Assembly: GCA_024642665.1 (NCBI GenBank)
Contig: JAHEAR010000001.1
Location: forward strand, 182,701 to 246,700
Source: Bacteroidota bacterium
GTDB lineage: Bacteria; Bacteroidota; Bacteroidia; Chitinophagales; Saprospiraceae
Direction of reading: 5' to 3'
DNA length: 64,000 bases
The translations under genes and the position numbers were made by a program. The notes beneath the pieces were generated by a model. The model searched no databases. It was not told the origin of the DNA and was given only the letters and a program-made list of their open reading frames with translations. Below, in pieces: positions 29,874-44,256 of the stretch. Numbering within the stretch: the first letter of the stretch is position 1; each line of letters starts with the position of its first letter.

Positions 29874-31184
29874 ATGAATGGGATTGAAAGCCTCGGCAGA
29901 GGCGCACTTGGGATGGCATGTTTATTAGGCGTATGCTACCTCCTCAGTAAAAACAGAAAACAAATTAATTGGCAAACCATTGGTATGGCGCTGGGGATGC
30001 AAATCGTATTTGCACTGCTCATCCTGAAAATTCCGTTTTTCAATACTGCTTTTGAATGGCTTGCTTCCATGTTTGTGGGCGTTTTGAATTATGCACAATA
30101 TGGCTCTGAATTTCTATTTGGAGATCTGGTGACCAAAACCAATACGTTTGGGTACATCTTTGCAGTTCAGGTTTTACCTACGATCATATTTTTCTCTGCG
30201 CTTTCAAGTGTCTTGTATTATCTCGGTCTCTTGCAGATTGTCGTGAAAGGGATGGCCTGGGTGATGACAAAGACCCTTAAATTATCCGGTCCTGAGAGTC
30301 TGTCTGCCGCAGGAAATGTATTTCTGGGTCAGACAGAAGCACCGCTCCTCATAAGACCCTATATCGCCAAAATGACCCGCTCCGAAATCATGTGTATCAT
30401 GACGGGAGGAATGGCCACCATCGCCGGCGGTGTATTTGCCGCTTATATTGGATTCCTTGGCGGGGATGATCCGGTAGCTAAAGTTTATTTTGCAAAACAT
30501 CTTTTATCAGCTTCCATTATTTCCGCTCCTGCCGCTATTATGGCATGTAAGATGCTCGTACCGGAAGTTGAAAAACAACACAATACGGATACGCTCACTA
30601 TGGAAGCATCATCTTCCGGAAATTTGCTGGATGCTATCTCCACCGGTACTACAGAGGGGTTAAAACTTGCAGCCAATGTTGGTGTCATGCTATTGGTATT
30701 TACAGCATTGATCTATCTGGCCAATGGCATCTTATTGAAATTTGGTCAAATCGGAGGTTTAAATGAATGGGTTTCCGCCATCACCGATGGTAAATATGAA
30801 GGCTTCAATTTTACCTTTATTCTGGGGGTCATCTTTGGCCCTGTTGCCTGGTTATTGGGTACTCCTTCGCAAGACATGATGCAGATCGGGCAGCTCCTTG
30901 GACAGAAGACCATGATCAATGAATTTGTCGCGTATGCCGAATTAAATACACTAAAGAATTCAGGCATCCCGTTAGATCCTAAGTCTATTCTTATTGCGAC
31001 TTATGCCCTTTGCGGATTTGCCAATTTTGCCTCTATCGGTATACAAATCGGAGGGATCAGCACGATGGCTCCTAATCAACGAAAAACGTTGACAGAACTT
31101 GGCGTCTATGCACTGATTGCCGGTACCATTGCCTGTTTTTTCACAGCTATCATCGCCGGCGTATTATTCTCGTTTGGTACTTAA
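29874..31184 (+). CDS. nupC: Concentrative nucleoside transporter (NupC/CNT family)
   Basis: CNT proteins import nucleosides by sodium or proton symport. The 436-aa integral membrane protein shows the three CNT domains: the N-terminal helices, the NUPC gate region with GQTEAPLLIRPY and MATIAGGVFAAYIGF, and the C-terminal domain with NEFVAY and CGFANFASIGIQIGG. It lies divergent from udk, so uptake and phosphorylation of nucleosides are probably linked. Its stop shares a TTAA palindrome with the stop of the convergent lipoprotein gene. Confidence 0.95.
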   Translation: MNGIESLGRGALGMACLLGVCYLLSKNRKQINWQTIGMALGMQIVFALLILKIPFFNTAFEWLASMFVGVLNYAQYGSEFLFGDLVTKTNTFGYIFAVQVLPTIIFFSALSSVLYYLGLLQIVVKGMAWVMTKTLKLSGPESLSAAGNVFLGQTEAPLLIRPYIAKMTRSEIMCIMTGGMATIAGGVFAAYIGFLGGDDPVAKVYFAKHLLSASIISAPAAIMACKMLVPEVEKQHNTDTLTMEASSSGNLLDAISTGTTEGLKLAANVGVMLLVFTALIYLANGILLKFGQIGGLNEWVSAITDGKYEGFNFTFILGVIFGPVAWLLGTPSQDMMQIGQLLGQKTMINEFVAYAELNTLKNSGIPLDPKSILIATYALCGFANFASIGIQIGGISTMAPNQRKTLTELGVYALIAGTIACFFTAIIAGVLFSFGT

Positions 31185-32314
31185 GGATGGCTTAACGCCA
31201 ATATCATTTGCTGAACATTGAAAACTTTTTGCTCCCCGGTATTTTCATTAAAAAGTAACAAGTTGGCAGTCATATCTACCTGGTATGCATCCTCCCCAAA
31301 AGGTGAAATACCATAATAGATTTTATCCTGTATGATCCATTGCGACTGATCCGGTTGGATTCCTGCTGAGCTACTCCATACCTCGCCGACATCGTCAATG
31401 TATTGAATGGCCACGCGATTTTCAAAATTCCCTAAGGAAGCATCCAGTGTCGGTGTACTGGTCAGACTGATGGGAAAATAGCAGGCATCTACTGAAGAAT
31501 TCTGCACACGAATCGTTTGAGATAATCTGGAACTATTTCCCAAAGCATCGGTTACCAAAACATCAGCAAATACTTCTGCGACACTATCCTGTAATGCTAT
31601 AACTCGATTTTGTGTAGTGGCACCGTTGGACCAAAGCACTTGAAATGGTGCAGTGCCGGTAGGAATTACTTTTAAATTTAAGTATCGTGGATTTTCAAGT
31701 TTAGGTTCTATTCTCAGGAGGCAAGGGACTTCTGTTACCGGCTCAAATGAAATGCATTGCTTGTAGGCACAACCGGTATAGGCCTGCGATTGAAAACAAA
31801 CGTTAATTATTTCTTCAAATCCAACTGTACTTTGGTATTCATGAAAAAAAGAAGAAGAGCCATTCGAGTCTTCCCAAAAACTATATCCATTAATAAAAAG
31901 TCCAGGATGCGTGGACAATAAAACATCAAATCGCTTTCTTTCAGATTCAGAGGAAAGAATTTCTTTTTCACCGACCTGAATCGTGTTATTGAAGTCGACC
32001 GCCGGATCATTTGTTGCCGGCAACGCCTGATAAAAATTAAAGGTCCAGGAAGATGGACACTGATCAACGCAACCATTCTGGCTAAATACAGAGGTATATA
32101 TCAAAAGTGAATCTCCCTGCAAGACAACCGGCAGATTCGTCCATTGATTAATGCCTGCAGCAATATTTAATGGCTCATTTCCAAAATAACCCTGTAAACC
32201 AAATATCTCATCCTTCTCGGACGAACCGGGAATATCCTGAGGATCCTTAACGCATGAAACCAAAAGTCCAATTACGACTAAAAGTATATAAGGACTAATT
32301 TTATAAACGTCCAT
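31181..32314 (-). CDS. Lipoprotein with Cys-x8-Cys-x4-Cys module, last gene of the ECF sigma cassette
   Basis: A 377-aa protein. The signal peptide ends in a lipobox (GLLVSC), so it is lipid-anchored. The mid-part carries a C-x8-C-x4-C pattern (CFQSQAYTGCAYKQC) followed by an Ig-like unit that begins at Cys (CLLRIEP) and contains VLWSNGATTQN. The spacing and LWSNG motif match the nine repeats of the secreted 1070-aa protein encoded upstream in the same orientation. It overlaps the end of the Dma-like gene by 14 bases, so the two are co-translated. ATG 32314 is chosen because the lipobox peptide starts there. I infer a cell-surface or periplasmic partner of that secreted protein; the function is unproven. 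Confidence 0.75.
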   Translation of the reverse strand: MDVYKISPYILLVVIGLLVSCVKDPQDIPGSSEKDEIFGLQGYFGNEPLNIAAGINQWTNLPVVLQGDSLLIYTSVFSQNGCVDQCPSSWTFNFYQALPATNDPAVDFNNTIQVGEKEILSSESERKRFDVLLSTHPGLFINGYSFWEDSNGSSSFFHEYQSTVGFEEIINVCFQSQAYTGCAYKQCISFEPVTEVPCLLRIEPKLENPRYLNLKVIPTGTAPFQVLWSNGATTQNRVIALQDSVAEVFADVLVTDALGNSSRLSQTIRVQNSSVDACYFPISLTSTPTLDASLGNFENRVAIQYIDDVGEVWSSSAGIQPDQSQWIIQDKIYYGISPFGEDAYQVDMTANLLLFNENTGEQKVFNVQQMILALSHP

Positions 32315-33707
32315 AAAAAATATAATTAATATGAATGAAAGGTTGGAAAGGAGCATATGCCCCACTCCATGTAAATCCTTCTTTTTCGAGCGAAGGATCT
32401 TCAACGGTAAACGATGAAAAATAATAATCGGCGCCGACTGTAACTGCTATACAAGGCGTGATCTGATAGCCATAGGACAGATCAGTGGTCCAATTTAATT
32501 TTCGCAATCCACTGGTTTTTAACCAGGCATACTTTGTGGTTTCGACAGGTCCTGAAGCGAATTGATCTTCGACGAGTGTAGTAATATTCCCTTGTGCGCC
32601 ATATAACCACTGAGCACCGCCATGGGCAGCAAAAATATGCCGATGTGATCTGATTTGCATACCTAATTTGCCATACACAAAATGAAGTTTATCGGGATTG
32701 AGCGTATTAAAGCTACTCCTGGTTCCAAAACCGGGTTGATTGACGGAAGACAATCTTTGAAAATCAAAACCACCATGCTGAAAGAGATACCCCCCGGATA
32801 AAGACATCTGGACTTTCGATGACAAGTTGTACCCTAATCCGGCCCCGACATTGAACTTCCATCCGGACTCAAAATCAGGTTTTGAGCCAAGCACGATACC
32901 TACTCCGGCCTCGCCAAAAACATAAAAGTATTTCGTTAATGCAGATGCAGGACTGATTTGCATAGTCATCATTTCTGTTGAATTATCCAGACCATTAATT
33001 CCTAAAGATTCTATGGAAGCAATAGTCATCAATGATCTGGAAGCTACGGTGTTCTCAAACGTTTGATCCACTAAAAAATCAGTAGCTATAGGCTCCTGAT
33101 CAGGCATCGCCATTTTAATATCCTGATTCGTCAAAACTAGCTTTACACTTTCTGATTCTTTAGATTGTAATAAATCCTCACTTTTATTTAGCATGCTCCT
33201 TTGATCAGCAGGTACCATCTCAACACGTTGTCGTGCGCCCTGTGACGTATTCGATTTTACTTTATTTTCTGCCGTTGGCGCATTTGGTTTAGTCACCCGT
33301 TGTTTCGCTGAAAGAGATGCTATTTGTCCTGATGCATTAATCGTATTGATAGGATCAGAGATTGTTGCTGTTTCGTTTGCCAAGGCTATTGCCGTATTAT
33401 GATCTGCATTAATATTTAGTTTATTTTCGGTGGCAGCAATCACCCTCGATTCAACGGGCGTTGTAAGTTCAATATCATCTTTACTGTGTTGATCATTTTC
33501 CTGCAGTGATTGCTTATCATTATTCAGATAGATGTACCCTGCCAATGCAGCCACAACGACAAATCCTCCCAGCCACCAAAACGGAAATGGTTTGCGGCGT
33601 TGTTGATCATTCAACAGATCAATCATTTCCTGTCGGTGTGTTTGATCCACCGCAAAATGTTGCTGTTCCAGTTTCCTTCTCAGGATATCATCGAAGTTAT
33701 TTTTCAT
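32301..33707 (-). CDS. Dma-like trans-envelope anti-sigma candidate: cytoplasmic head, inner-membrane helix, C-terminal outer-membrane barrel
   Basis: 468 aa in three parts. Residues 1-42 are charged and would lie in the cytoplasm. Residues 43-61 form one membrane helix (WWLGGFVVVAALAGYIYL). A polar, low-complexity linker of about 200 residues leads to a C-terminal ~200-residue region of alternating strands (YFYVFGEAGVGIVLG onward) with the aromatic-rich, terminal-strand pattern of outer-membrane beta-barrels. Its ATG overlaps the stop of the ECF sigma gene (ATGA). Proteins of this layout next to ECF sigmas have been described in Bacteroides as dual membrane-spanning anti-sigma factors (Dma). 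By analogy the head would hold the sigma factor and the barrel would sense the surface. The sigma-binding role is inferred from architecture and position. Confidence 0.75.
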   Translation of the reverse strand: MKNNFDDILRRKLEQQHFAVDQTHRQEMIDLLNDQQRRKPFPFWWLGGFVVVAALAGYIYLNNDKQSLQENDQHSKDDIELTTPVESRVIAATENKLNINADHNTAIALANETATISDPINTINASGQIASLSAKQRVTKPNAPTAENKVKSNTSQGARQRVEMVPADQRSMLNKSEDLLQSKESESVKLVLTNQDIKMAMPDQEPIATDFLVDQTFENTVASRSLMTIASIESLGINGLDNSTEMMTMQISPASALTKYFYVFGEAGVGIVLGSKPDFESGWKFNVGAGLGYNLSSKVQMSLSGGYLFQHGGFDFQRLSSVNQPGFGTRSSFNTLNPDKLHFVYGKLGMQIRSHRHIFAAHGGAQWLYGAQGNITTLVEDQFASGPVETTKYAWLKTSGLRKLNWTTDLSYGYQITPCIAVTVGADYYFSSFTVEDPSLEKEGFTWSGAYAPFQPFIHINYIFYGRL

Positions 33708-34267
33708 TTCAATGATGCTGTTTTAGGTGATTTAATAAGACTTTCCTTTATTTTCTTTCTGGCCTCATGGACATGCCACTTAGAGGTCCCTGTCGTAATC
33801 ATTAATTGTTCAGCAATTTCTTTGTGTGAGTAACCATCTATGGCAAACATGTTAAAAACTTGTTTATCCATGGCCGGCAATCGGTTGATGACCGCTAAAA
33901 TATAATCAACATCAAATTCAACTAATGCTAGTCGCTGGTCATCATCATTCCATGCATCATCCTGTATCATTTCCCCTTGGTATTGATGATGTTGATAATG
34001 CTTTTGCTGTGATCGGAATTCATCTATAATACTTCGAACCGTAATTTTTGAGATCCAGGCTTTAAATGAACCACTGTGATCATAGGTATCAATGTGCTGG
34101 AGTATTTTCAAAAAGCTCAAATTCAAACGAGCACCGGCTTCCTGTTTATCCTTACAATAACGGACACAAATCGACATCATATAGCTATAGCACAAGTCGT
34201 ACAGTTTGAGCTGCGCTCTCCTGTCTCCTTCTCTGCATTGCGCTAAAAGATGTTTTTCAATTTTCAT
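33704..34267 (-). CDS. ECF-family RNA polymerase sigma factor
   Basis: 187 aa. Region 2 (about 10-80) carries the helical sigma-2 pattern including YDHSGSFKAWISKI and RSIIDEFR. A linker follows, then sigma-4 (about 118-172) with LPAMDKQVFNMFAIDGYSHKEIA and a helix-turn-helix ending WHVHEARKKI. Such factors are usually held inactive by a cognate membrane anti-sigma, here the coupled Dma-like gene. ATG 34267 (MKIEKHLL) is preferred to a TTG at 34309. It lies 93 bp downstream of the T9SS repeat protein, so that gene is a plausible target or operon partner. Confidence 0.92.
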   Translation of the reverse strand: MKIEKHLLAQCREGDRRAQLKLYDLCYSYMMSICVRYCKDKQEAGARLNLSFLKILQHIDTYDHSGSFKAWISKITVRSIIDEFRSQQKHYQHHQYQGEMIQDDAWNDDDQRLALVEFDVDYILAVINRLPAMDKQVFNMFAIDGYSHKEIAEQLMITTGTSKWHVHEARKKIKESLIKSPKTASLK

Positions 34268-34360
34268 AAAAAAATCAGAAAAGGCCACCAGCTTGTCATT
34301 CCCTCTCAATGACGCACCGGCAGCCCTTTTCTTAGTAAGAGATGATTAGACCTCTACCCA

Positions 34361-37300
34361 TCAATCCTGTTTTATAAAACGTCCGTAATAAATTCCATTT
34401 AGTCCGTTGAGATTAATATGATATAATCCCGGGGCATATGCATGTACATCAATCGTAATGACTCCATTATCATTTACAACGCTGCCTGTCGTTAGTATCT
34501 TGCCCTGCATATCCACAAGCTGTATATCATATTGCGCATTTGTACCCGGTACTGCAAAATGCACTTCCTGTTTTGCAGGATTAGGATATACTTTCAGTTC
34601 TTCCCGCGTGATATCTTTAACAGCCACATTGAGTGCTTCAATTTCAATATTAACTTGTAGTCGCTGAGGATTTTCAGGTGTCAATGTCACCCAAATATCC
34701 GGAGAAACTAATCCGGCAACTTCATAGCTGATTCGATAAGTACCCCAAGGCAGATTTTCAAATCGATATGCGCCTTCTTCCAGACTCCATGTATAGTTAA
34801 GAGGCAGACCTTCCGCATCTTTGATAATGATCTCTACATTAGTCAAGCCAGCTGAGTTGCCTCGAATTTCAGGATCGTCACCGGCAATGATGCCCTGCCC
34901 ATCAGTCACAAAACCTGCGATAATTCCTCCACCGTTTAATCCGATCGTCGGAACCAGGAATACATCATGCTTGAGTTGGAAGGTCGGCAACCCAATTGGT
35001 ATGGCTTCCTGCCACTTTGTTCCTGAATAATGATACGTAGGAAGGTAAGCTTCTGCAGCAGCACTTCCGGGCGTCATCACTGCTTTGATGATGTATATGC
35101 CATCCGGCAACGGTGAACTTTTATACTGTCCATTCTGCATAATCTGAGCTGAATCGACCAGCGTATAAGGTTTCCCTGAATTAGGATTAAACGCATAAAA
35201 GTTCAAATATCCTTCTGCAGCATGTCCTACACTATCTGCGAAGACAACCCCTTCAATATAATTGTGCAATCCGGATGGAATGGAATCGATGGTATAACAA
35301 ACAGTAGCAAAACAGCCAAAGATTGTAATGACGTCTGCACAGTAAGTTCCCGTAGCAGTAACTTCTATCCATTCCGTACTATCACCTGTTGACCATATTA
35401 CCTGTGCAATCGGTTCTATGGATGAAATGTGAAGTGAAGGAACGGGCTGTGGAGAGTAATACATTGATATATTACAACTATCCACCGGGTAAGAGCAAGC
35501 AGAAGAAATACATCCACTGGCATCTGTCACGGTCACACATACATTAGGATCACCAAAATCAATAATCACGCTTTGGGTGGTTTCTCCATTCGACCAGAGA
35601 TATGTAAAGGGGGGTGTTCCCCAGGCATTCGCTGTATACTCTACCGGCGCCGGATCAAAATCATAGGATATCCAGACTCCACAAGAATCAACATTCCAAA
35701 AAACTACATCCACGCAAGCTGTGAAATTACAATTGGCGGTTGTGATGGTCACACAATAAAATCCTTCGCTATCAACAGTGATAACGTCAGTTGTGTCACC
35801 GGTACTCCATAACAATTCAATCCCGGGTTCAAGACTCCATGGGTTAGCAGTCAGTATGGCCAGATTATTCTGATAGGATACATCAATATACCCCCCGCAA
35901 ATCTGCTGGATGGAATCTACGCACGCCACCGCTTCACAACCAAAGGAGGAAGTAACCGTAACACAAGCGTATTGACCCGGAAAAGTAAGATTAATTGAAG
36001 GTGTCGTATCGCCGGTAGACCACAGAAAGTCAAAATCTCCAAATCCCCATGGTGCAGCTTCCGCCACCCAATTACCTGAACTGTCAACAAAAGAATATAC
36101 CCATACCACACAGTTCATTCCGATACTATCAAAATCCACATAAGCACAGGATTCAGAAACACAATTATTACCAATGGTTACCGTCACACAGTATTCACCG
36201 GATTCATTGACGGTAAGCACAGGTGTATTATCACCGGTTGACCAATTATACGTTGGTTCCGGAAATCCAGGCACCATATAAATTGGATCTACCCAGGCAT
36301 TCAGTATGGCAATGTTGGTATCCACATAATTGACTTCCACCCAGGAGTAGCAGAAATCAGAAAAATCAATACAAGCACTTGAAACACAACCTTCAGAATC
36401 CGTTAATGTAACACAATACGTTTCATCAGGATTTGAAGGATAAATAACCTGTGTCGTTTCTCCTGTGCTCCACTCATATAACCAGGACTCAGCACCTGTA
36501 TAGCCTACAGCTTGTAATGAAAGTCCATTGGAATCCTGAGGAATGATATTTATATAAACAAAACAAGTGGTGTCCTGTGAAAAATAGTATTGGTAGCACG
36601 ATTCTGCACTACATCCACTTTCATCAGTAGCCGTTACGCAATATAACCCTTCCGCATTGGGATAGATGGTTTGTGTATTGGCTCCGGTACTCCACAAATA
36701 GGCCACTGGCGGCTGACCGAACCCTTGCGCGGTTAAACCACCATTTGGAATTTCTGAAATATATACTTCACAGAAACCAAAATCATCAAGAATCACGCAA
36801 GCAGAACCTTCACAGCCTTCTGCATCGATCACAGTGACACAATACGTGCCGGGACCTACATTATTAATCGTTGGGGTACTTTGTCCGGTATTCCAGATAT
36901 ATTCGAAAGGAGCGATTCCTGAATGATTTGCTTCAAGTGTCCAGGTACTGTCATTCTCCGGTGTAGTGGTGATATACGCGAAACAAACATCATTTGAATC
37001 CAGTACGACAGTGACACAATCTGTATATTCACATCCCGATGGGAAAGTGGCTACCACACAGTACATGCCTGACTCCTGAGGAAAGATGGATTGTGTTGAA
37101 TCACCGGTGGACCAAAGGTAGGTGGGAAATAGTCCGGCAGGATTCCAGGCGACTAATTCTAACTCATTTCCTGGATTCCATTCTTCCAGAATAATCACCA
37201 GACAAGAGTCCATCATAAAATCCTGGCAATACACAAAATCAGCTGTAAAGTCCTCCGACCCGGTCAAAATCTCAAAATTTTGAGAGATCGTCGTACCCCA

Positions 37301-37573
37301 GCAATCGACCATACTGACCTCAAGCCAGCCATAAATATTGGGACCCGGAGAATCAATGCTGCCTGCATACTGACCATCAGCATCCGTATTCATAGTAATC
37401 ATTACTACAGTAGAATCCACAAAATAGGCAGAAGCCAAAATGACAACACCCTCCTGAGGATCCCCTTCTTCACTCGAAACAGTACCATGTACCGTAACCG
37501 TATTTTGTCCTAAGGCCAAGGCCCAGGCAGCCATAAAAAAGAGGGAACTGAGTAAAAATTTTCTAAATGACAT
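34361..37573 (-). CDS. Large T9SS-secreted repeat protein with nine four-Cys SprB-like modules
   Basis: 1070 aa. A signal peptide (about 1-22) is followed by a carboxypeptidase-regulatory-like beta domain (about 27-115). Nine tandem modules of 69-80 residues span about 124-768. Each starts with Cys, has a W-S-T-G-D/E-x-T turn, and ends in YCVTVTDxxGC with a strict C-x8-C-x4-C spacing (x7 in the seventh). A second regulatory-like domain and a prealbumin-like domain (about 770-980) precede a typical T9SS type A sorting domain (KVYPNPAKQEVHF to the C-terminus). The modules resemble SprB repeats of gliding adhesins. The product should be exported across the outer membrane and held at the surface or released. 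It is divergent from rarA and lies 93 bp upstream of an ECF sigma gene. Confidence 0.88.
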   Translation of the reverse strand: MSFRKFLLSSLFFMAAWALALGQNTVTVHGTVSSEEGDPQEGVVILASAYFVDSTVVMITMNTDADGQYAGSIDSPGPNIYGWLEVSMVDCWGTTISQNFEILTGSEDFTADFVYCQDFMMDSCLVIILEEWNPGNELELVAWNPAGLFPTYLWSTGDSTQSIFPQESGMYCVVATFPSGCEYTDCVTVVLDSNDVCFAYITTTPENDSTWTLEANHSGIAPFEYIWNTGQSTPTINNVGPGTYCVTVIDAEGCEGSACVILDDFGFCEVYISEIPNGGLTAQGFGQPPVAYLWSTGANTQTIYPNAEGLYCVTATDESGCSAESCYQYYFSQDTTCFVYINIIPQDSNGLSLQAVGYTGAESWLYEWSTGETTQVIYPSNPDETYCVTLTDSEGCVSSACIDFSDFCYSWVEVNYVDTNIAILNAWVDPIYMVPGFPEPTYNWSTGDNTPVLTVNESGEYCVTVTIGNNCVSESCAYVDFDSIGMNCVVWVYSFVDSSGNWVAEAAPWGFGDFDFLWSTGDTTPSINLTFPGQYACVTVTSSFGCEAVACVDSIQQICGGYIDVSYQNNLAILTANPWSLEPGIELLWSTGDTTDVITVDSEGFYCVTITTANCNFTACVDVVFWNVDSCGVWISYDFDPAPVEYTANAWGTPPFTYLWSNGETTQSVIIDFGDPNVCVTVTDASGCISSACSYPVDSCNISMYYSPQPVPSLHISSIEPIAQVIWSTGDSTEWIEVTATGTYCADVITIFGCFATVCYTIDSIPSGLHNYIEGVVFADSVGHAAEGYLNFYAFNPNSGKPYTLVDSAQIMQNGQYKSSPLPDGIYIIKAVMTPGSAAAEAYLPTYHYSGTKWQEAIPIGLPTFQLKHDVFLVPTIGLNGGGIIAGFVTDGQGIIAGDDPEIRGNSAGLTNVEIIIKDAEGLPLNYTWSLEEGAYRFENLPWGTYRISYEVAGLVSPDIWVTLTPENPQRLQVNIEIEALNVAVKDITREELKVYPNPAKQEVHFAVPGTNAQYDIQLVDMQGKILTTGSVVNDNGVITIDVHAYAPGLYHINLNGLNGIYYGRFIKQD

Positions 37574-37682
37574 AATAATTGAAGTTAATTTGATTTAAAG
37601 ATGATACTCTTTCAACTCTCTATACGGAAGCAAAAAGAAAAAGGTTGGGGATCACGACTTTTTTTTTAGTTATTTTGTAAAA

Positions 37683-38957
37683 ATGGCAACAATTCCACTG
37701 GCAGAGCGTCTGCGACCGCGCACGATAGCAGATATTTTAGGGCAGGAGCATCTCCTGAGCGAAGGTGCCGTCCTGCTCAAAGCTATCCGATCCGGCAAAC
37801 TGCCCTCTATGATCTTATGGGGCCCACCGGGTGTTGGCAAAACCACCCTGGCCAGAGTGATTGCGGGTGAAATGAATCGACCTTTCATCCCCCTTTCGGC
37901 GATTAACAGCGGTGTCAAGGACATCAGGGAAGCAATAGACCAGGCGAAGAAACAACGCTATTTTGATCGCCCGGGACCCATCATGTTTATTGATGAAATA
38001 CACCGGTTCAGCAAAGCACAACAGGATAGTCTTTTGGGGGCAGTAGAGGATGGTACAATTACATTGATCGGGGCCACCACAGAAAATCCATCCTTCGAAG
38101 TTATTTCTGCCCTGCTCTCGAGATGTCAGGTGTATGTATTGAAAGCGCTTGAAGAAGATACTTTGCGTAAGCTGATCTTTAAAGCCACTAACCAGGATGC
38201 AGAACTTAAGCAGAAATCAATTACGATCGAAGAAGATCATGCCCTAATCAAATTGACCGGTGGTGATGCACGGAAGTTATTATCAGCGCTGGAGTTGCTA
38301 ACCAGTGTGGAAGAAAAGGATATTATTATAAATGATCAGAACGTTCAGGCAGCGATCCAGCAAAATATCGCCATGTATGACAAAGGTGGCGATCAACATT
38401 ATGATATCATTTCCGCTTTTATCAAATCAATTCGTGGATCAGATCCTAATGCTTCAGTCTATTGGTTGGCCAGAATGCTGCATGGTGGAGAAGACATTAA
38501 ATTTATAGCAAGGCGGATGGTAATTCTTGCGGCAGAAGATATCGGACTGGCTAATCCAAATGCATTACTTCTCGCTCAGTCATGTGCCAACGCGATTCAG
38601 TTTGTCGGGATGCCGGAAGCGCGCATTATTCTATCGGAAGCCGTAATTTATCTTGCTTCCAGCCCTAAATCAAATTCAGCTTACGAAGCGATCAGTGCAG
38701 CCATGCACCTGGTCAATGAAACCGGACCTCTTCCTGTGCCACTGGCTTTAAGAAATTCTGCCACGACACTCATGAAAAGCATGGGCTATGGCGAAGGATA
38801 TCATTACAGTCATGCCTATGATGGTAATTTTTCCGCTCAGGAATTTATGCCGGATGAAATTGCAGCAACGGCCTTCTATCATCCGGGCAATAACAAACAG
38901 GAAAATGATATTGCCACCAGAATGGCCGGATGGTGGGGCAAGAAGTATGGCGTGTAG
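37683..38957 (+). CDS. rarA: Replication-associated recombination protein A (RarA/MgsA)
   Basis: RarA is an AAA+ ATPase of the clamp-loader class that acts at stalled replication forks, related to eukaryotic WRNIP1. The 424-aa protein has LAERLRPRTIADILGQEH at the N-terminus, Walker A GPPGVGKTTLA, Walker B MFIDEIHRF, sensor GATTENPSFE, the arginine-finger region LLSRCQVY and the C-terminal tetramerisation part with a GGEDIKFIARRMVILAAEDIG-like motif. Length is standard. Single gene, divergent from the T9SS repeat protein with a 109-bp shared upstream region. Confidence 0.96.
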   Translation: MATIPLAERLRPRTIADILGQEHLLSEGAVLLKAIRSGKLPSMILWGPPGVGKTTLARVIAGEMNRPFIPLSAINSGVKDIREAIDQAKKQRYFDRPGPIMFIDEIHRFSKAQQDSLLGAVEDGTITLIGATTENPSFEVISALLSRCQVYVLKALEEDTLRKLIFKATNQDAELKQKSITIEEDHALIKLTGGDARKLLSALELLTSVEEKDIIINDQNVQAAIQQNIAMYDKGGDQHYDIISAFIKSIRGSDPNASVYWLARMLHGGEDIKFIARRMVILAAEDIGLANPNALLLAQSCANAIQFVGMPEARIILSEAVIYLASSPKSNSAYEAISAAMHLVNETGPLPVPLALRNSATTLMKSMGYGEGYHYSHAYDGNFSAQEFMPDEIAATAFYHPGNNKQENDIATRMAGWWGKKYGV

Positions 38958-41838: not shown

Positions 41839-44109
41839 CTATTCTTTGATGACTTTTTCAATCCAAACAGTGTTATCCATTTTGATATAAATCAAATACA
41901 TCCCCGGCACTTGATTTGATAAATTGATTTGATTCAAATTCCCACTTTCTGACAAGTCAAAATACACTGACCTGCCTACCATATCAAAGACTTTGATAGT
42001 TTTTATTTCCTCCGTTTTCCAAATAATATTAATCATGCCCATGCCTAGTGAGCCATTCATGCGATACGGTTTTTCCTCACCGGGAGCCGCCGGCTTTGCA
42101 ATGCCGGTGTATCCCACGGTCATATCAGAAATAAATAATTCCAGTCCACCGCGCTGATTGCCAATAATCAAATCATATACGCCATCATTATTCAGATCTG
42201 CAAGAGCAGGGGAACTTCTATTACCAACATCAATTTGTCCATAACCCCCATCCAATAATGGCAAAGCTTCTGTTTTTCCTTTTTCCACATCACCATATAA
42301 AGCCAGCTTTCCGGGATCCATGCCTGCCAACATCACCAGGCCTTCAGGCGTCCTGACAATGGATGGTGCACTGTATTGAGGCAATCCAACAGGAATATCG
42401 AACAGAACTCTTCCAAAGCATTGTGTATTTGGCGCCAGTTTCACATCTGCATTAAAAAATGCATTTCCGCCAAAACCCATATTTTCAAAATAATTCAGAT
42501 TACTGCATCTCCCAAAATCATCCCCATTACCGGTTCGCTCTCCGACCACCAGATCACCATACCCATCCCCATTAATATCTACAATCTGTGGTGTCGCAGA
42601 GACCCCAACACTGATGTCCATAAAAGGATACACCACATTTGCGAAATTCATTGCTTCGCCCACATCACTCATATTTCTATAGTAGAATAACTTCCCGTTT
42701 TGTTCACCTACCACCAGATCCAGTGAACCATTTCCATTCATATCACCAAAGGCAGGAGCAAAATCAAATGTGGGCAAATCTGCATATTGCGACATCTCCA
42801 GATAATCATCATTGATCCGAGAAAAATAGGGTTGCTCCGGTGTTCCAATATTTTCAAACAACCATAGGGAAGGAATTCGTGTGGTGATGCCTTCTGCAAA
42901 CGTGTAACCACCTATCACTATATCCGGCAAACCATCACCTGTCACATCTGCGACCGCGGGTCGACTGTAGGATCCCATATCAATCATGTCATTTTGCAAA
43001 AACCCTTTCTGATTTATAGTATAAGTAAGCGGTCCATCATCCGGTGTATCATCATATCGCCATACACTTATCTTGTCTTCCGTCAGTGACCTTGAATTGA
43101 TCGCTGCAAGAAATTCAGGTTCCGGATCATCATCCAACTCCACACTATACGCCGCCACAAAATATGGCATGTCAACTGACGTATCATTCATTGGAAAATG
43201 AGGATCCTGTTCAGTAATCCATGCTTTATCAGCGCTCAGTCCGTTAAGCAGAAAAACCAATCTGCGTGAAGAAATATCTCCGAGCCATGCGTCCTTGTCG
43301 CCATCACCATCAATATCCAAAGCCATCACCGTACTGCCCGAATGACGTGGAATAATTGGATCTTCATCTGTAAAATTACCGTCCGCACAGATCGACTCAT
43401 CATCACTCAGATAAACCTCTTCACTCAACTCATTTTCAAGAATCTTACCCCAGCATTGATCCTTCAACATAAATCTGAGGGAGTCTGTACCCCATCCTAA
43501 TTCAAGAGATTGATTGCTAAAAAAATGTATATAACTTCCTCCTGGTTCAAAAGCCAACACATCCAGATCGCCATCGCCATCCACATCTGTAATGGCTGGA
43601 ATATCATCCCACGAAGCATACAAATTTGTCAAATCGCCGCCACCCGGAACCTGCAGATAGTCTTTACCCCTGTCCGACATTAAAGTAAAGCTCCAGGTCT
43701 CATTGGCGTAACTTCCCTTGTAAACAGAAATCCCCGGCACGCCATAGTCCGATGAACTCGTAAACAAATCTTCCACACCATCCTGATCAAAATCTCTTAC
43801 AAATACCCAATCCACCATTTTAGGAAAAAAAGGAAGATAAGACCAATCCATGATCCAATTTCCTGATCCGGGGGCACGAAGATACGTGCGCAAAACATCT
43901 CCCTGCCGATCAAAAGAAATCAAATCCTGAATACCGTCACGATTAAGATCAATGTTTGAAAATTGTGGCGCATTAAAACCCCCGTTCCAATCCATAGACA
44001 ATTCTTTGCCATCAATGGCCACCGGAATCTGCTGCCGCTCTTGTGCAATCGCTGAAGCAACGGACAAGAAAAAGATCAATATTGAAATAATTACAAATGG
44101 CGTTTTCAT
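41839..44109 (-). CDS. Secreted FG-GAP/VCBS repeat protein with T9SS sorting domain
   Basis: 756 aa. The signal peptide (MKTPFVIISILIFFLSVASAIAQ) is followed by an extended beta-propeller region with at least eight calcium-binding D-x-[DN]-x-[DN]G-x-x-D loops (for example DLNRDGIQD, DFDQDGVED, DVDGDGDLD, DIDGDGDKD, DINGDGYGD, DLNNDGVYD). It ends in a T9SS-type sorting domain (IKVFDMVGRSVYF ... LIYIKMDNTVWIEKVIKE). Such proteins are exported to the surface and often bind ligands or matrix. No enzyme motif is seen. ATG 44109 is chosen because the signal peptide begins there; the longer frame to 44190 has no signal features. Confidence 0.9.
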   Translation of the reverse strand: MKTPFVIISILIFFLSVASAIAQERQQIPVAIDGKELSMDWNGGFNAPQFSNIDLNRDGIQDLISFDRQGDVLRTYLRAPGSGNWIMDWSYLPFFPKMVDWVFVRDFDQDGVEDLFTSSSDYGVPGISVYKGSYANETWSFTLMSDRGKDYLQVPGGGDLTNLYASWDDIPAITDVDGDGDLDVLAFEPGGSYIHFFSNQSLELGWGTDSLRFMLKDQCWGKILENELSEEVYLSDDESICADGNFTDEDPIIPRHSGSTVMALDIDGDGDKDAWLGDISSRRLVFLLNGLSADKAWITEQDPHFPMNDTSVDMPYFVAAYSVELDDDPEPEFLAAINSRSLTEDKISVWRYDDTPDDGPLTYTINQKGFLQNDMIDMGSYSRPAVADVTGDGLPDIVIGGYTFAEGITTRIPSLWLFENIGTPEQPYFSRINDDYLEMSQYADLPTFDFAPAFGDMNGNGSLDLVVGEQNGKLFYYRNMSDVGEAMNFANVVYPFMDISVGVSATPQIVDINGDGYGDLVVGERTGNGDDFGRCSNLNYFENMGFGGNAFFNADVKLAPNTQCFGRVLFDIPVGLPQYSAPSIVRTPEGLVMLAGMDPGKLALYGDVEKGKTEALPLLDGGYGQIDVGNRSSPALADLNNDGVYDLIIGNQRGGLELFISDMTVGYTGIAKPAAPGEEKPYRMNGSLGMGMINIIWKTEEIKTIKVFDMVGRSVYFDLSESGNLNQINLSNQVPGMYLIYIKMDNTVWIEKVIKE

Positions 44110-44256
44110 AAATCTGGTTTCACTCTTTAAAAGTACGGTTTGGCCGGGAAAGATTCCGGGGGAATGCAACAATTGGAGGGTATTAAGCAATTAATTGAAC
44201 AGAAGACGACACAATACAGGACAAAAGATGAGGCTATGCACGTATCCTCTGGCTCG

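Follow-up and report, generated by a model that had tools for sequence, protein, structure and literature searches.

We consider it probable that the adhesin gene described here belongs to a four-gene, autoregulated surface-adhesin cassette under trans-envelope control by a Dma-type anti-sigma and an ECF sigma factor. The sigma factor, the anti-sigma and an accompanying lipoprotein appear to switch on the adhesin's own gene from a shared promoter, and the locus is best described as a Dma/ECF system whose output is a disulfide-stapled adhesin. The analysis started from a 64,000-nucleotide stretch of a Saprospiraceae genome (the window) and was extended to related loci. Comparison of these sequences establishes the gene order and its recurrence, the domain make-up of the encoded proteins, the promoter motif, and the coupling between the second and fourth cysteines (Cys2 and Cys4) of the adhesin modules.

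Organization and conservation of the locus

The genes are arranged in the order adhesin, ECF sigma factor, Dma-type anti-sigma, lipoprotein (Table 1). Because the sigma and Dma genes overlap by 4 bp, the Dma and lipoprotein genes overlap by 14 bp, and the gap between the adhesin and sigma genes is 51 bp, all four are likely to be carried on one transcript. The lipoprotein gene and a convergent nucleoside transporter gene (29874-31184) have a 4-bp overlap at their stop codons (window 31181-31184). At the other end of the locus a rarA/mgsA gene (window 37683-38957) diverges from the adhesin promoter. The presence of this flanking gene in 33/101 loci examined points to shared inheritance, and its position seems to be anciently conserved. 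Window positions 41839-44190 encode another T9SS type A protein, which has FG-GAP repeats (an integrin-like propeller) and is unlinked to the cassette.

Table 1. Features of the cassette, in window coordinates.
Feature	Position	Strand	Extent and remarks	Profile match
ECF-type promoter, CCCAACC-N16-CGTATA	37621..37649	-	48 bp upstream of the adhesin ATG	
Adhesin CDS	34361..37573	-	1070 aa; first gene of the four-gene operon; from N to C: signal peptide, beta-sandwich domain, nine four-Cys modules, CarboxypepD_reg domains, T9SS type A sorting domain	
Array of nine Ig-like four-cysteine modules	35270..37204	-	residues 124-768 of the adhesin	
CarboxypepD_reg domain	34649..34858	-	residues 906-975 of the adhesin	PF13620, E=3.6e-9
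T9SS type A C-terminal sorting domain	34367..34591	-	residues 995-1069 of the adhesin	TIGR04183, PF18962
ECF sigma factor	33704..34309	-	listed start TTG; an inner ATG near 34267 may be the true one	PF08281, PF04542
Dma-type anti-sigma	32301..33707	-	468 aa; cytoplasmic N-terminal segment, TM about 43-61, tether about 64-250, C-terminal beta-barrel	
Lipoprotein	31181..32314	-	377 aa; lipid-anchor Cys21; core domain split by PKD-like and SprB-like modules	
PKD-like inserted domain	31745..31906	-	about residues 137-190 of the lipoprotein; contains C-x8-C-x4-C at 31754-31798	
SprB-like inserted module	31487..31723	-	about residues 198-276 of the lipoprotein; WSNG present, Cys2-Cys4 absent	

Conservation was assessed on a set collected by iterated searches within one Bacteroidota family, which yielded 90 lipoprotein genes and 71 loci with enough sequence to be evaluated. 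The Dma gene is adjacent at 88/90 of the lipoprotein loci, and an adhesin with the C-x8-C-x4-C signature lies upstream of the sigma gene at 49/71 of the evaluable loci. The linkage of adhesin and lipoprotein genes in one locus, which the initial annotation had claimed for the window, thus holds across many genera. That annotation made no connection to the sigma and Dma genes lying between the two, in which we see the main point of the locus. By sequence comparison the four-gene order recurs, with a common promoter, across dozens of genera. Two of the genes recovered, the Dma gene of L109 (526-1946) and the lipoprotein gene of L101 (9382-10688), are each split over two overlapping frames, reflecting either assembly errors or frameshifts. 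No literature account of such an adhesin/sigma/Dma operon was found, which is a weak sign of novelty given that most subscription papers lay outside the search.

The four-cysteine modules of the adhesin

The adhesin has a hydrophobic signal sequence, directly visible at its N-terminus, and a C-terminus that scores 52.2 bits against TIGR04183 (cut-off 23), two features that together identify it as T9SS type A cargo. All nine modules previously proposed for the coding sequence are present at the positions given for them. Each is headed by a cysteine, with a Cys1-to-Cys1 pitch of 69-80 residues, and the closing triplet reads C-x8-C-x4-C in eight of the nine and C-x7-C-x4-C in the remaining one, just as first described. 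This ninefold regularity is far beyond chance, and every cysteine is retained in the same-genus orthologue (L099/L100), the comparison that had been suggested as a check on the spacing.

The window adhesin itself gives no match to the SprB model PF13573 at E ≤ 1. All seven intact orthologous adhesins match this model, 4 or 5 of them above its 28-bit cut-off (scores of 40.1, 52.9, 54.8, 34.5 and 60.5 lie above it, 22.1 and 22.8 below). On the strength of the orthologous adhesins that exceed the SprB cut-off, we provisionally assign the module to the SprB superfamily as an Ig-like domain with one extra, predicted disulfide. It shares with the SprB repeats of T9SS gliding adhesins the W-S-x-G turn and the G-Y-x-V-T-V-T-D-x-x-G-C hairpin. 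Unlike those repeats, the cassette adhesins add a Cys2-Cys4 pair in nearly every module and have no gliding-gene neighbors.

A structural model of two adjacent modules (mean pLDDT 86.7) has five strands per module. Searched with Foldseek, this model returned as its second- and third-best matches (E 1.7e-4 and 4e-4) the grappling-hook protein GhpA of Aureispira (PDB 9flw, 9flv), likewise a giant surface protein with Ig-like modules; the TM-scores are low (0.31-0.35) and indicate no more than tandem Ig-like modules.

The strict C-x8-C-x4-C spacing occurs in 226/270 modules of the cassette adhesins, as against 2/49 in the other module proteins of the same genome. The framework is therefore as unusual for SprB-type repeats as had been supposed: it marks the cassette adhesins and is nearly confined to the cassette. 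This bears on the possibility that the locus has no functional unity, SprB and PKD modules being widespread enough in this bacterial family for neighboring genes to share them by chance. The same genome does encode about 20 other module proteins. Given the near-confinement of the strict four-cysteine version to the cassette, and a four-gene order and shared promoter that recur over dozens of genera, we nevertheless regard such a coincidence as highly improbable.

Cysteine pairing was examined in an HMM-based census of aligned domains, in which Cys1 is often unaligned; a regular-expression census of Cys1 was noisy. Cys2 and Cys4 are both present in 277 domains, both absent from 86 and discordant in 2 (p=2e-82, a value that overstates the independence of these related domains), and the presence of Cys3 varies separately from theirs. 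In the two-module model, strands 42-49 and 55-62 are the arms of a hairpin, and their positions, as we read them, bring Cys2 (Cys45) face to face with Cys4 (Cys59). Because the two residues are kept or lost together, they almost certainly form one disulfide, predicted to lie across the F-G hairpin. Cys1 and Cys3 would then make up a second pair, linking the N-terminal strand to the F-G turn. A Cys1-Cys3 pair is common in SprB-type repeats; the Cys2-Cys4 pair is the feature special to this cassette. Each adhesin module is probably stapled by two disulfides.

A lipoprotein with inserted modules

The fourth gene encodes a protein with a lipobox (LLVSC) that places the lipid-anchor cysteine at residue 21, a position invariant in 28/28 homologues. 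Strong matches to this protein are confined to one Bacteroidota family in an order-wide sample, and the core of the lipoprotein family has no match in Pfam. An AlphaFold model of the lipoprotein, computed from two sequences, reached a pLDDT of 39 and was set aside, so that no fold or disulfide prediction is taken from it.

It had been claimed that the lipoprotein shares the adhesin module, having the same C-x8-C-x4-C triplet and the same W-S-N-G turn. Both elements are present, once each (residues 173-187, P=0.0024 against composition shuffles, and residue 228), but they lie in different modules and in reverse order. In the family alignment the cysteine triplet closes a PKD-like domain. Nine of 28 lipoprotein homologues match PKD_4 in this region, and solved PKD domains match the same region of the lipoprotein profile; the window copy aligns with these homologues but gives no score itself. 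The WSNG turn belongs to the next module, which is headed by Cys198 and lacks Cys2, Cys3 and Cys4. A profile built from the nine adhesin modules, the proposed check, scores 24.7 bits in total on the lipoprotein, the best of 3000 shuffled lipoproteins reaching 13.7. The half-module around WSNG contributes 20.8 bits (E=4e-5 for 3000 proteins) and the cysteine triplet only 0.5 bits. The two proteins do therefore share a homologous half-module, though not by way of the cysteine triplet. Neither of the outcomes named beforehand as refuting the observation was seen. The further suggestion that they are homologous partners fails: the lipoprotein as a whole is a separate family with its own core, into which PKD-like and SprB-like modules have been inserted.

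Across loci, the lipoprotein module as a rule resembles other adhesins more than the one encoded beside it, and there is thus no sign of recent sharing or of pairwise matching. The cognate adhesin is the top-ranked match of the lipoprotein module in only 2/49 cases, with a median rank of 11 of 50, and recent copying of modules between the two genes was rejected on these figures.

At four loci, in two clades, the lipoprotein is reduced to its core of about 200-214 aa, and a Cys-module adhesin lies beside the sigma gene in 0/3 of the evaluable loci in these clades. The lack of such an adhesin at core-only loci suggests, from gene content, that the insert serves the adhesin-linked form. Tabulating lipoprotein module against adhesin over all loci gave counts of 38/8/11/14 (Fisher p=0.0012), an association that is not established once relatedness is counted. 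A firm claim that insert and adhesin are lost together was withdrawn; the Fisher test is significant, but the independent tree contrasts are too few, comprising two independent events.

One could suppose that adhesin and lipoprotein bind one another homotypically through their shared modules, with the lipoprotein serving as the adhesin's surface anchor. The homologous module in both proteins, the strong gene linkage and the insert-less clades would fit such docking. The lipoprotein module, however, lacks three of the four cysteines and shows no cognate match, and the loss pattern amounts to only those two events. A type A sorting domain normally leads to attachment to A-LPS, so a lipoprotein anchor would not be needed. 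On these grounds we judge docking of this kind quite unlikely. Direct contact between adhesin and lipoprotein in any form is plausible but unproven, because the adhesin of its own locus is not the nearest match of the inserted module and the tree contrasts fail to confirm the link.

Promoter, anti-sigma factor and proposed circuit

When the regions upstream of 42 cassette adhesins were searched blindly for dyads, CAAC was recovered at a fixed spacing from CGTG in 29/42, the maximum in shuffled sequence being 7. The resulting consensus is ACCCAACC-N16-CGTGTA, in which CAAC and CGTG are invariant by selection and the flanking bases are not. With up to two mismatches allowed, CCCAACC-N16-CGTGTA is found upstream of 33/42 cassette adhesins and in 0/210 shuffles. 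The motif thus has the AAC-type -35 and CGT -10 elements, at fixed spacing upstream of the target, that characterize an ECF-dependent promoter, and in flavobacteria a CGT -10 box has been interpreted as ECF-type (PMC9723704). A scan for sigma-70 promoters returned nothing above expectation. We infer that the cassette sigma factor recognizes the CCCAACC-N16-CGTRTA promoter.

In the 3.7-Mb genome that contains the window, the sole exact match to CCAACC-N16-CGTRTA is the one before the adhesin. Since the reversed control pattern gave two matches, a single match is what chance could give, and its weight rests on its position. Across 14 further genomes a stricter pattern gave 14 exact matches, as against 1 for the control. 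Nine of the 14 are at cassettes, two of them ahead of a tandem pair of adhesins in a single locus; one more lies before a distant Cys-module adhesin. The motif precedes the sigma gene in only 5/38 loci without an adjacent adhesin, so the sigma factors of such loci may read other sites.

Several of the individual matches can be placed. L126 (G037:C201:10535 and 13113) has tandem cassette adhesins, each behind its own exact CCCAACC-N16-CGTGTA. L258 (G112:C148:29833) is a stand-alone adhesin with six C-x8-C-x4-C modules and the same promoter, and is likely a second regulon member; it lies near a contig end, and neither sigma nor Dma was seen within 7.4 kb. Exact promoter copies also lie 48-260 bp before genes for a secreted 319-aa protein (L259, G278:C186:4373), a cluster of small secreted barrel-like proteins (L260, G016:C79:24666) and a small lipoprotein (L261, G068:C123:37209), all candidate extra regulon members.

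The ECF sigma gene adjoins the Dma gene, and the sigma factor scores 81 bits against TIGR02985, below the cut-off of that model. In the published Dma family an N-terminal segment, a TM helix, a long disordered tether and a C-terminal beta-barrel are encoded beside a cognate ECF21 sigma factor (PMC13088901). The four parts of the protein recur in the window copy. The N-terminal segment is short and in homologues carries a conserved motif. The single TM helix corresponds to a hydropathy peak at residues 43-61 and is present in 91/95 family members. The tether (residues 64-250) is rich in S, T, N, Q and A with almost no aromatics, and this region is unalignable in 36 homologues. The barrel matches OMP_b-brl_2 in 18/36 homologues and OMP_b-brl in 10/36, the window copy itself being weak (E=0.0034, below the cut-off). 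Dma-like proteins, unlike strong matches to the lipoprotein, are also found in other families of the class.

The likeness to Dma1-3, which is one of published layout and not of sequence comparison, extends to the operon. As here, the four-part anti-sigma lies beside an ECF sigma gene with a third gene following, as in the dma2 operon, and the published operon is self-induced; das2 and bt_1557 are strongly up in a dma2 mutant (PMC13088901). The cassette differs in having a T9SS repeat adhesin as its first gene and main inferred output, the B. thetaiotaomicron operon having no reported adhesin, and in a lipoprotein whose family core matches nothing in Pfam. There is also a functional parallel in the PorA/PorXY-SigP pathway of Porphyromonas gingivalis, in which a protein with a T9SS C-terminal domain passes a signal from the surface on to an ECF sigma factor (PMC7712824). 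That pathway uses a two-component relay and governs a T9SS machinery regulon, in place of the Dma anti-sigma and adhesin operon found here.

We infer that Dma inhibits its neighboring sigma factor. Starting in the cytoplasm, Dma would cross the inner membrane and the periplasm and end in an outer-membrane beta-barrel, and it would hold the sigma factor in check until a cue arrives. The PKD-like and SprB-like modules of the lipoprotein would probably face the surface and serve the Dma complex as an arm for sensing or docking. Once the complex of barrel and lipoprotein registered the cue, Dma would release the sigma factor, which would then transcribe the whole cassette from CCCAACC-N16-CGTRTA. 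The adhesin would be exported by Sec and the T9SS to display its nine SprB-superfamily Ig-like modules. Candidate cues are the adhesin's own state, a surface ligand shared with it, and envelope stress; that the lipoprotein uses its insert to sense the adhesin or the adhesin's ligand is speculative.

The last of these cues underlies a different account, in which the system is a regulator of envelope stress or secretion load, Dma senses the outer membrane or the state of barrel folding, the adhesin is incidental, and the lipoprotein modules bind an environmental ligand or glycan and not the adhesin. Dma1 and Dma2 are known to influence vesiculation and polysaccharide-utilization loci, not adhesins (PMC13088901). 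Module-bearing lipoproteins are kept without an adjacent adhesin at several loci, and the lipoprotein module has no cognate specificity. The genome of the window moreover has a second sigma-Dma-lipoprotein trio that lacks an adhesin (G000:C28:163388-164353; L257:7847-10856); its third gene encodes a lipoprotein of 334 aa with 9 Cys that core profiles place in a different family. The narrow promoter, with its one exact match in the genome, and the adhesin linkage at 49/71 loci point instead to the adhesin as the main output. We hold the stress account to be a genuine possibility that we lean against, and it would in any case alter the cue and not the circuit.

Within the autoregulated cassette, a stronger form of the model would make the adhesin array, or its ligand-bound state, the direct cue for the PKD-like and SprB-like modules of the lipoprotein, with the signal reaching the sigma factor by way of the barrel and tether of Dma. 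We rate this trans-envelope adhesion sensor as unlikely. If it is true, a T9SS-exported adhesin would control its own transcription from the cell surface.

The four-cysteine module can be understood as a doubly stapled SprB-type repeat tied to one regulatory system. Dma anti-sigmas were described only recently, and little is known of their inputs and outputs. To their study the cassette offers a narrow, conserved output in the adhesin, a defined promoter open to mutation, and a lipoprotein partner that is likewise conserved and whose presumed sensory insert two clades have lost naturally. The cassette makes the question of what a Dma protein senses a directly testable one.
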